The translations under genes and the position numbers were made by a program. Below, one piece after another: positions 35,195-39,339 of a DNA stretch of 47,168 bases; within the stretch, counting starts at the first letter, position 1; every line of letters begins with the position of its first letter. A model generated the notes under the pieces. The model was not told the origin of the DNA and ran no database searches. It worked only from the letters and a program-made list of their open reading frames with translations. The stretch covers positions 1-47,168 of the forward strand of contig JAADFK010000199.1 in NCBI GenBank assembly GCA_013152925.1, written 5' to 3'. Source of the stretch: Acidobacteriota bacterium (lineage in GTDB: Bacteria; Acidobacteriota; Thermoanaerobaculia; Thermoanaerobaculales; Sulfomarinibacteraceae).

Positions 35195-37120
35195 ATGCGC
35201 GATACCTACTACATCACTACGCCTATCTACTATGTCAACGACCTGCCCCACATCGGTCACATCTACACCACGGTGATGGCCGACATACTCGCTCGCTACC
35301 ACCGGATGGCCGGCCGGGACGTCCGCTTCCTCACCGGCACCGACGAACACGGCCAGAAGATCGAGCGGGCGGCCGCCGCCCAGGGGATTCGGCCCATCGA
35401 GCTTGCCGACCGGGTCGTCGCCAGGTACCACCACCTCTGGGAGCAGCTGGAGATCTCTCACGATGATTTTATCCGTACGACGGAGCCCCGGCACCAGCGG
35501 GGCGTCACGGAGATCATTCGCAGGATCCAGGCCAAGGGAGACATCTACAAGGGGGAATACTCCGGCTGGTACTGCGCCGGCTGCGAGGCCTTCTTCCCGG
35601 AAACGCAACTGGTCGAGGGCCGCTGTCCCGATCAGGGCCATCCCGTGGAGCTCCTCTCCGAGCCCAGCTACTTCTTCCGCCTCTCCGCGTACCAGGAACG
35701 TCTTCTGGAGTGGTACCGCGACCACCCAGGGTGCGTCGAGCCGAGATCCCGCTACAACGAGGTGCTGCGCTTCGTGGAGGGCGGGTTGCGTGATCTCTCC
35801 ATCTCACGCCGCTCGCTCAGCTGGGGTATCCCCTTTCCGGGCGACGAAGACCACGTGGTGTACGTCTGGCTGGACGCCCTGACCAACTACCTCTCGGCCC
35901 TGGGCTTCGGATCGGCTGACGACACCCTCTTCCAGCGCTACTGGCCGGCCCAGCTCCACCTGGTTGGCAAGGACATCCTCCGCTTTCACTGCGTCTACTG
36001 GCCAGCCTTCCTGATGTCGGCGGGACTGCCGCTTCCCGAGAAGGTGTTCGGCCACGGCTGGTGGATGCGCGACGAGGCCAAGATGTCCAAGTCGCTGGGC
36101 AACGTCGTTCGCCCCGACCACCTTCTGGAACGCTTCGGGCCCGACGCCTTGCGCTACTTCCTGGCGCGGGAGATGGCCTTCGGCCAGGACGCAACCTTCT
36201 CCGACGAGGCGTTCCTGGAACGGTACAACGCCGACCTGGCCAACAACCTGGGCAACACAACTTCCAGGACCCTCTCCATGACCCACCGCTACCTGGAGGG
36301 CCGGGTCCCGGTCCCCGGAGGAGGTGGCCAGGTGGCCGCCGCCGCCGGCCAGGCCACGGCCGCCTACCTCGGCGCCATGGACCGCCTGGAGCCGCACCGT
36401 GCCCTGGAGGCGGTCTGGCAGCTGCTCGCTGCCATCAACGGGTTCATCCAGGAGAGCCAACCCTGGGCGCTCGCCAAGGCCGGCGCCCAGTCCCAGGACC
36501 ACCTGGAAGAGGTGCTGGGAAGCTCGCTGGAAGGGCTGCGCATCGTCACCCTGATGATCGCTCCCTTCATGCCGGGCGTAGCCCTCAGGCTCGGGTTGCA
36601 GCTCGGCCTCCCGGAGCCGCGGCGCGAGTTGTCACGAGAGATTGCATGGGACGCCGGCCCGCGGGGCCGGAAGCTCGGCGAAAGCCAACCCCTCTTTCCC
36701 CGTGTGGACATCAAGGCCTACCTCAAGGAGGTTGCCATGGAAGCCGAGAAGCAACAGGAAGTCAAGCCGGCGGAGACACCGGCCAAGGAATCCACCATCA
36801 GCATCGACGAATTCGCCAGGATTCAACTGAAGGTCGGTACAGTGCGGGAGGCCGAGAGGATCCCGAAGTCCAAGAAGCTGCTGCGGCTGATGGTCGATCT
36901 CGGCGAAGACGAGCTGCGGCAGGTCGTCGCCGGGATCGCCGAACGGTACGATCCCGAGGAGCTTCTCGGCCGGCGAATCGTCATCGTCGCCAACCTCGAG
37001 CCGGCCCGGCTCATGGGTGTCGAGTCCCGCGGCATGATCCTGGCGGCCACCGACGCCGACGGCCACCCCTACATCCTCTCCCCCGACGGCGACGTGCCGC
37101 CCGGGTCCGAGGTCCGCTAG
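35195..37120 (+). CDS. metG: Methionyl-tRNA synthetase with C-terminal tRNA-binding domain
   Basis: 'YYITTPIYYVNDLPHIGHIYTTVMADILARY', 'GTDEHGQKI', 'KMSKSLGNVV'; C-terminal 'IQLKVGTVREAERIPKSKKLLRLMVDLG'. Confidence 0.96.
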   Translation: MRDTYYITTPIYYVNDLPHIGHIYTTVMADILARYHRMAGRDVRFLTGTDEHGQKIERAAAAQGIRPIELADRVVARYHHLWEQLEISHDDFIRTTEPRHQRGVTEIIRRIQAKGDIYKGEYSGWYCAGCEAFFPETQLVEGRCPDQGHPVELLSEPSYFFRLSAYQERLLEWYRDHPGCVEPRSRYNEVLRFVEGGLRDLSISRRSLSWGIPFPGDEDHVVYVWLDALTNYLSALGFGSADDTLFQRYWPAQLHLVGKDILRFHCVYWPAFLMSAGLPLPEKVFGHGWWMRDEAKMSKSLGNVVRPDHLLERFGPDALRYFLAREMAFGQDATFSDEAFLERYNADLANNLGNTTSRTLSMTHRYLEGRVPVPGGGGQVAAAAGQATAAYLGAMDRLEPHRALEAVWQLLAAINGFIQESQPWALAKAGAQSQDHLEEVLGSSLEGLRIVTLMIAPFMPGVALRLGLQLGLPEPRRELSREIAWDAGPRGRKLGESQPLFPRVDIKAYLKEVAMEAEKQQEVKPAETPAKESTISIDEFARIQLKVGTVREAERIPKSKKLLRLMVDLGEDELRQVVAGIAERYDPEELLGRRIVIVANLEPARLMGVESRGMILAATDADGHPYILSPDGDVPPGSEVR

Positions 37121-37129
37121 GAACGCACG

Positions 37130-38722
37130 GTGGGAGGATTGGCCTTCAAGGCATCCAAGGGCGGCCTCAAGGTCGCTCTGGTCAACGCCTTCGACCGTCC
37201 GTTCGACAACGTGGTCGCTGCCGCCAGGAGCTGCTACTCGCCCACGCCCGTGACGGCAGAGATGGCTTCGGGCGAGCTGATCGACGATCCTCAGAAACGG
37301 CAGCAGGCGCAGCTCCGAAGGGATGAGCTCGCCTACTCCATCTACGAGGCCGGTCACCACACGACGTACCAGCACGCACACTTCCAGTTCGTCATTCAGG
37401 GAATCAGCAGGCTGGCCCTGTGGAGCTTCCTGCACGCCCATCAGTTCTACAACTCCGAGCAGGGCTCCCAGCGGTACGTGCCGGTCAGCGCCTCGGCCGT
37501 TCACATCCCGCCGGCCTTGGGCGGCCAGGCCAGGACCTTCTTCCTCAACGCGGTCAGGCGGGCCCACGCCGCCTACCTCTCCCTGGCCAAACGCCTCGAA
37601 CCCGTGGCACGGGCGGCGGTCCTCCGCCAGTTTCCCTCCCTTGCCAAGGCCGCCCACGCCCGCCGCCTGGAGCGGCTCGTCCGCCACCGTGTCCAGGAAA
37701 CGGCACGCTACGTGCTGCCACTGGCGACAACAGCCCACTTGCACCACACCATCTCGGTCCTGACGCTATTCCGCTACTACCGTGCCTGCCGCCAGCCCGA
37801 CGCGCCGGAGGAGCTGAGCGCGCTGGCCGGCACCATGATCAAGCTCGTCCTCGAGCTCGATCCCAACTTCCGGAAGGTGCTGGAGGAACCGCTGGAGGGC
37901 CTCCCGGTCGGCCTGTCCCTGACCGTGCCCGAAGCGACCCCCGGACAGGTCGCCGCCTACCGCCGCGAGTTCGACGGGCGGCTCGGACCCCTGAGCTCCC
38001 TCCTCCTCAGCGACCCCTTCCAGCTTCGGCCCGGGGTCGCCGCCGGCGTGCGCGCCGTGCTCAGCCAGCCGCAGACGATGCTGAGCGACGAGGACGCCAT
38101 CCGGCGTGTTCTCGATCCTGCGAGGAACCCGCTCCTGGCGGAAACGCTCAACCTGACAACGGTGGATCCCCTCAGCCGCTCCTTGCACCATGCCACCGTC
38201 ACCTTCGCCACCAAGCTGTCCCACACGGCGGACAGCCAGAACCAGCGCCACCGCATGGTTCCCGGCGCCCGTCCCGTTCTCGCCGCTGCTGTCGACGACC
38301 AGCCGGATTACATCGTCCCCGGCCTGGTTCAGCGGGACGAATCCCTGCTCTCCTCATACCGGGCGTTGATGGACCAGACCTGGGCCGCGGTCACCTGGAT
38401 GCGGCGGAACGGCCCCGACCCCGCGCTGGCCAGCTACCTCCTTCCCAACGCCGTCGCCGTCCGCCTCGTGGAGACCGGGGACCTGCTCCATTTCCACCAC
38501 AAGATGCGGATGCGCCTGTGCTGGAACGCCCAGGAGGAAATCCGGCGCGCCGCCTGGCAACAGGCGATGCAGATCGCCCAGGCTGATCCCCTGATGGGGA
38601 GCTTCCTCCTGCCGCCCTGCGGTGTCCGCCGTGCCGCCGGCCGGACCCCATACTGCCCCGAGGGTGAGCGGTTCTGTGGCACCCCCGTCTGGAAGCTCTC
38701 TCTCGGCGAGCAGAAACCCTGA
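37130..38722 (+). CDS. ThyX-like (FAD-dependent thymidylate synthase family) protein, apparently two-domain and divergent
   Basis: First half 'AARSCYSP...YEAGHHTTYQHAHFQFVIQGISRLALWSFLHAHQFYNSEQGSQRYVPV'. Second half 'LLHFHHKMRMRLCWNAQEEIRRAAWQQAMQI'. GTG start. Confidence 0.7.
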   Translation: MGGLAFKASKGGLKVALVNAFDRPFDNVVAAARSCYSPTPVTAEMASGELIDDPQKRQQAQLRRDELAYSIYEAGHHTTYQHAHFQFVIQGISRLALWSFLHAHQFYNSEQGSQRYVPVSASAVHIPPALGGQARTFFLNAVRRAHAAYLSLAKRLEPVARAAVLRQFPSLAKAAHARRLERLVRHRVQETARYVLPLATTAHLHHTISVLTLFRYYRACRQPDAPEELSALAGTMIKLVLELDPNFRKVLEEPLEGLPVGLSLTVPEATPGQVAAYRREFDGRLGPLSSLLLSDPFQLRPGVAAGVRAVLSQPQTMLSDEDAIRRVLDPARNPLLAETLNLTTVDPLSRSLHHATVTFATKLSHTADSQNQRHRMVPGARPVLAAAVDDQPDYIVPGLVQRDESLLSSYRALMDQTWAAVTWMRRNGPDPALASYLLPNAVAVRLVETGDLLHFHHKMRMRLCWNAQEEIRRAAWQQAMQIAQADPLMGSFLLPPCGVRRAAGRTPYCPEGERFCGTPVWKLSLGEQKP

Positions 38723-38784
38723 GGACGCCAGCCTTCACAACGGAGCATCTGGACGCGCAACCCCGAGCGGTCTAAGATGCTTCC

Positions 38785-39339
38785 ATGCCCAGCCACCTGC
38801 CCACCGAGGTTCGCCGCCGGCTGCAGCCCATACGGCTGCTCGTTCTCGACGTGGATGGTGTGCTGACCGATGCGATCCTGATCTACGGCTCCGCCGGAGA
38901 GGCGTTGAAACGATTCAACGTCCGGGACGGCCTGGCCCTGCACCTGCTCCGCCGCGCGGGAATCGATGTCGCCGTCATCTCGGGGCGAAGGAGCGAGGCC
39001 GTCGCCATACGCTGCCGGGAGTTGGGCCTGAGGGAGGAGCTGGTCATCCAGGGATCACGCGACAAGTCCGCCGACCTCGATACGCTGACGGGAATCCTGG
39101 AAATCGGTGACGACGCCGTTGCGGCCATGGGGGACGACCTGCCCGACCTGCCGCTGCTGCGCCGTGCGGGCTTCGCCGCCTGTCCGGCCGACGCCGCACC
39201 GGAGGTTGTCGCCGTGTGCCACCACATCTGCGGCGCCGAGGGTGGCCGCGGCGCCGTCCGCGAGGTGGCCGAGCTCATTCTCAAGGCGCAGGGCCGATGG
39301 CAGGGTCTGACCTCGCACTGGAGCGAACCCGTCGGGTAG
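38785..39339 (+). CDS. kdsC: 3-deoxy-D-manno-octulosonate 8-phosphate phosphatase (HAD, KdsC-like)
   Basis: 'LLVLDVDGVLTDAILIYGSAGEALKRFNVRDGLALHLLRRAGIDVAVISGRRSEAVAIRCRELG...VAAMGDDLPDLPLLRRAGFAACPADA'. Confidence 0.9.
   Translation: MPSHLPTEVRRRLQPIRLLVLDVDGVLTDAILIYGSAGEALKRFNVRDGLALHLLRRAGIDVAVISGRRSEAVAIRCRELGLREELVIQGSRDKSADLDTLTGILEIGDDAVAAMGDDLPDLPLLRRAGFAACPADAAPEVVAVCHHICGAEGGRGAVREVAELILKAQGRWQGLTSHWSEPVG

Follow-up and report, generated by a model that had tools for sequence, protein, structure and literature searches.

Introduction

The flavin-dependent thymidylate synthase ThyX (FDTS) is an antibacterial target whose textbook active site is built from three subunits. In its canonical form (e.g., Thermotoga maritima TM0449 and the Mycobacterium tuberculosis structure 3gwc; families PF02511 and TIGR02170), single-domain subunits form a homotetramer whose four sites are identical, and the RHRx7SxRY signature is contiguous. 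Within one site of the M. tuberculosis (Mtb) homotetramer, subunit A supplies the RHR motif and R199, subunit C supplies R87, S105, R107 and Y108, and subunit B supplies S71 and R190 (PMC6514825); hereafter we refer to these contributions as roles A, C and B. A double form of ThyX is already known, as a domain-duplicated ThyX from Chloroflexi was mentioned in 2009 as “not characterized” (Valas and Bourne, PMC3224940). Here we describe a tandem (fused double) ThyX of 530 amino acids (aa), encoded at 37130..38722 on the forward strand of a 47,168-nucleotide stretch of Acidobacteriota DNA (contig JAADFK010000199.1 of assembly GCA_013152925.1; the whole stretch is hereafter “the window”). This protein has the same fold, motif order and inferred reaction as canonical ThyX and, with both of its halves combined, the same catalytic residues, whereas its two domains are fused and the signature is divided between them. 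We consider it likely that the protein is a flavin-dependent thymidylate synthase in a fused double form, in which composite active sites would be formed across the N- and C-terminal domains. The Chloroflexi protein probably belongs to the same broad class, although the passage that mentions it offers no analysis of its halves at the sequence level, unlike the comparison presented here. No account of a residue partition in tandem ThyX was found in a literature search for which most subscription papers were out of reach.

Division of the ThyX signature between two domains

The open reading frame (ORF) runs uninterrupted from a GTG start to a TGA stop, and its product gives two independent matches to Pfam Thy1 above the curated cut-off, at residues 17–245 (E = 8.3e-28) and at about residues 350–487 (38177–38590, E = 3.6e-19). 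The double length of about 530 aa, noticed in a first-pass annotation made from the sequence alone, is thus confirmed. The N-terminal domain comprises residues 17–245 (37178..37864) and the C-terminal domain, drawn with the help of a structural model, about residues 262–490 (37913..38599); these and all other features given here lie on the forward strand. The profile score of the C half is weaker than that of the N half. Kinship with ThyX is nevertheless clear from profile searches, with 163.2 bits against a cut-off of 24.8 for Thy1 and 91.9 bits against 87.9 for TIGR02170 (NCBIfam thyX), while the protein has no match to PF00303 (ThyA) and Thy1 is the sole family matched.

The residues that make up the signature are found in different halves. 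In the N half, the RHR motif has degenerated to A103-H104-Q105 (37436..37444) while S113-Q114-R115-Y116 (37466..37477), equivalent to T. maritima (Tm) S88/R90/Y91, is retained, which is how the first-pass annotation had read this half. The same half carries S93-R94 (37406..37411), where R94 aligns in 3gwc to R87, a residue that contacts deoxyuridine monophosphate (dUMP), as well as G75-H76-H77-T78 (37352..37363), which contains the equivalents of Tm H53/T55 (Mtb H69/S71) and is a feature of the N half only. The true RHR motif is R373-H374-R375 (38246..38254) in the C half, which falls on the RHR columns in a gap-free stretch of both the profile alignment and a multiple alignment with single-domain ThyX. 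This half also contains R462 (38513..38515), the equivalent of the dUMP-activating Tm R174 (Mtb R199), and it has lost S-x-R-Y. The first-pass description of a protein without the RHRx7S signature is therefore correct in that no domain holds a contiguous RHRx7S, but not in the sense of a missing motif, since RHR is present in the second half only and S-x-R-Y in the first half only. The alignment of SHTADSQNQRH in the second half to S-x-R-Y, also suggested there, was rejected, because the residues that follow it complete the R373-H374-R375 that both kinds of alignment place on RHR.

To place these residues in a family context, 104 tandem proteins and 30 single-domain ThyX were aligned using T. 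maritima numbering. Two types of tandem protein are distinguished. Type 1 (n = 56) is window-like and includes viral contigs, an archaeal metagenome-assembled genome (MAG) and a gammaproteobacterial MAG, whereas type 2 (n = 48) comprises other Acidobacteriota, Bacillus, Parabacteroides, Euzebya and Miltoncostaea plasmid genes, and phage and viral contigs. The 104 rows are related by descent and do not represent 104 independent events, yet the partition is common to both types despite an identity of only ~25% between them. R78 is found in all 104 C halves but in only 6 of the N halves, and R174 likewise in 104 C halves and 3 N halves; conversely, S88 and R90 occupy their columns in every one of the 104 N halves but never in a C half, and Y91 is Y in 103 N halves, F in one, and absent from all C halves. 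Position 53 is H in 101/104 N halves and position 55 is S or T in all of them, neither being conserved in the C halves. The single-domain controls hold both residue sets in one domain (with R or K at R78), and RHRx7S exactly as written is found in 25 of the 30, the remaining five having K for the first R. Among 53 type-1 relatives, S93, R94, S113, Q114 and R115 of the N half and R373, R375 and R462 of the C half do not vary, and H374 is conserved in 52. A chance origin of the pattern is excluded, since it is common to full-length relatives at 35–69% identity. Duplication and fusion with complementary loss of residues, as the first-pass annotation supposed, is thus supported by the same split in all 104 tandem proteins aligned, and the set of contacts to dUMP and flavin adenine dinucleotide (FAD), the role-B Arg considered below excepted, becomes complete only if the two halves are taken together.

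A structural model (AlphaFold2, built from 50 relatives; mean predicted local distance difference test score 91.4) agrees with the profile results. Both halves are modeled as a short strand, helices, a long strand, a helix, a long helix, a strand, a helix and a helix, and the 50 top matches listed from the PDB, with E = 3.5e-7 downward, consist entirely of single-domain ThyX and the homologous PolB, so that the fold is that of ThyX. The model of a type-2 protein gave similar PDB matches. When the PDB was searched by sequence with each of the three tandem profiles, single-domain ThyX and marginal matches to proteins other than ThyX came up, but no tandem ThyX.

Thymidylate supply in the genome and the phylum

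The source genome, which is 96% complete, has the tandem ThyX as its only Thy1 protein and no match to ThyA (PF00303), i.e., neither a thyA nor a further thyX, both of which the first-pass annotation had thought worth looking for. No FolA-type dihydrofolate reductase (DHFR) was found in the genome either, as expected where ThyX alone makes deoxythymidine monophosphate (dTMP). Thymidine kinase is present and salvage is thus possible; no de novo thymidylate synthase other than the tandem ThyX was found in the genome. Given a single ThyX and the lack of detected ThyA or FolA-type DHFR, we take the tandem protein to be, almost certainly, the de novo thymidylate synthase of the cell.

The same picture emerges from a sample of 297 Acidobacteriota genomes, counted by hand from the match table. 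Thy1 was detected in 209 genomes, with at least two Thy1 matches in ~150, mostly within one frame of about 480–600 aa. Full-length ThyA was detected in 70 genomes, only one of which has Thy1 as well, in the single-domain form, and none of the ~150 genomes with at least two Thy1 matches has a full-length ThyA. An independent survey of orthologous groups (COG) in Acidobacteria recorded ThyX in 6/6 and ThyA in 0/6 (PMC5954106). This mutual replacement is strong evidence that the tandem ThyX makes dTMP, so that we favour ordinary dTMP synthesis by an enzyme whose subunits are unusually arranged. The altered thymidylate synthesis or other methylation raised in the first-pass annotation finds no support in a genome where this is the sole ThyX, nor in a phylum sample where full-length ThyA never accompanies two or more Thy1 matches, and new chemistry is unlikely. 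As for individual genomes, one from the same class as the source (G286) has a full-length ThyA together with a single-domain ThyX, and in family f37 many genomes have only weak ThyA-like matches (about 28–46 bits) and no listed Thy1 match.

A proposed composite active site and its alternatives

Comparison with the Mtb site suggests how the two halves might cooperate. As Mtb subunit A supplies RHR and R199, the C half retains exactly the role-A residues, whereas those of role C, together with the H/S segment of role B, are found in the N half. The C domain (the proposed FAD/RHR half) would therefore act in role A only, and N domains (the proposed dUMP-loop half) in roles C and B, to catalyze the reaction dUMP + methylene-tetrahydrofolate + NADPH -> dTMP. 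Two fused chains would assemble into a ThyX-like pseudo-tetramer with D2 symmetry, consisting of two N and two C domains, in which two composite sites would each be built from one C domain and both N domains, leaving two dead sites. After fusion, the presence of four redundant sites may have relaxed selection, so that only one side of the site survived in each half. Assigning role A to C domains and roles B and C to N domains is self-consistent in D2, although we infer the assembly itself. Placing role B in a C domain would also satisfy the geometry, but the C halves have lost the H53/S55 segment of that role, which disfavours this alternative; we assigned role B to the N domain because the role-B residues are conserved in N halves only. 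Judged by its residues, neither half seems functional by itself.

Three observations weigh against this scheme. In type 1, neither half retains the Arg of role B (Mtb R190, Tm R165), and the FAD phosphate contacts must therefore differ from those of the canonical enzyme. In one group of type 2 (g2), the same Arg is instead present in both halves. Lastly, a thyA may possibly have been missed in a genome that is 96% complete, though this would be unusual.

The division of residues also bears on whether one half is simply degenerate, with a structural or regulatory role, while the other forms ordinary ThyX sites alone. Pseudo-enzyme halves are common after duplication and the C half is the weaker one by profile, but neither half has a complete residue set, each conserves a different part strictly (104/104), and a degenerate domain would not retain RHR and R174, or S88, R90 and Y91, without exception; we therefore regard this explanation as highly improbable. 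That the protein is a ThyX relative which methylates another nucleotide, e.g., uridine monophosphate (UMP), or makes a modified base, is likewise very unlikely. Its divergent sequence, the extra cysteine motif of type 1 and the existence of ThyX homologues with altered substrates would fit such a role, the example being PolB (PMC5003785), the UMP/dUMP C5-methylase of polyoxin biosynthesis, whose structure (4p5b) is among the structural matches. PolB shares the ThyX fold with the window protein but is single-domain, has a secondary-metabolite role and is not close by sequence. Moreover, every dUMP-contacting residue is kept when both halves are counted, no ThyA was found beside this sole ThyX of the genome, and tandem ThyX and ThyA are mutually exclusive across the phylum sample.

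A different question is whether the split arose once, in one ancient fusion, or twice, through independent fusions in type 1 and type 2 whose partitions became alike by convergence. With the signature columns removed, a separate duplication of either type was not rejected (approximately unbiased test, p = 0.32 and 0.27). In the free domain trees, N halves cluster with one another and C halves largely do likewise, at weak or moderate support. The trees are compatible with a single origin, and we view two origins as plausible but somewhat doubtful.

Other tandem forms, the cysteine tail and the gene neighbourhood

The nearest named relatives are from Acidobacteria and Thermoanaerobaculia MAGs, at 63–69% identity, and point to an Acidobacteriota genome. 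Tandem ThyX genes on Bacillus, Paenibacillus, Parabacteroides, Euzebya and Miltoncostaea plasmids and in a Tunturiibacter phage (L141–L146) are annotated “FAD-dependent thymidylate synthase” and have the same N/C partition as the window protein, yet they are type 2, i.e., the cysteine tail is lacking, their N half retains the Arg of role B and, in the Bacillus forms, RHNR stands for RHR. This variant, with one extra residue, was seen throughout the Bacillus/Paenibacillus-type proteins L127–L134, L139, L141 and L142. A type-1 protein from a Woesearchaeota (DPANN) MAG (L015) has RQR for RHR and was possibly acquired by lateral transfer. The ThyX of Microcystis phage LMM01 (491 aa) was recovered as a full-length match in the viral library.

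Four conserved cysteines, C464, C497, C509 and C516 (38519..38677), are specific to type 1, where they occur in 55–56 of the 56 proteins and include a C-x11-C-x6-C tail; the pattern reads PPCxxR...CPEGxRFCG, and the columns of C497 and C509 are gaps in all type-2 rows. They form a possible metal or redox site. It is conceivable, though rather unlikely, that the dead sites and this four-cysteine element have taken on a new function (such as regulation, partner binding, or metal/redox sensing), and that tandem ThyX constitutes a widespread obligate two-domain class with the tetramer's subunit roles fixed in different domains.

At 35195–39339 of the window, metG lies 9 bases ahead of the tandem thyX, and a gene for a HAD-family phosphatase follows the latter. 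The metG-thyX adjacency is kept in L003, L004, L013 and L014, the closest relatives for which the context was covered.

Discussion

The function of the tandem ThyX thus seems normal and its proposed quaternary mechanism unusual. Chlamydia ThyX, which is probably also of double length (~530 aa), has been purified in active form: if it is tandem, activity has already been shown for the class, which would support the mechanism and lower its novelty. For annotation, the division of the signature means that a scan for RHRx7S misses tandem ThyX. With the subunit roles separated into two fused domains, the protein would show directly which residues share one site, and as a natural two-domain class it would allow asymmetric mutagenesis that is impossible in a homotetramer. 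Tandem ThyX would also illustrate cleanly how fused copies can degenerate in complementary ways, and a large part of the Acidobacteriota appears to rely on it as the sole thymidylate synthase.
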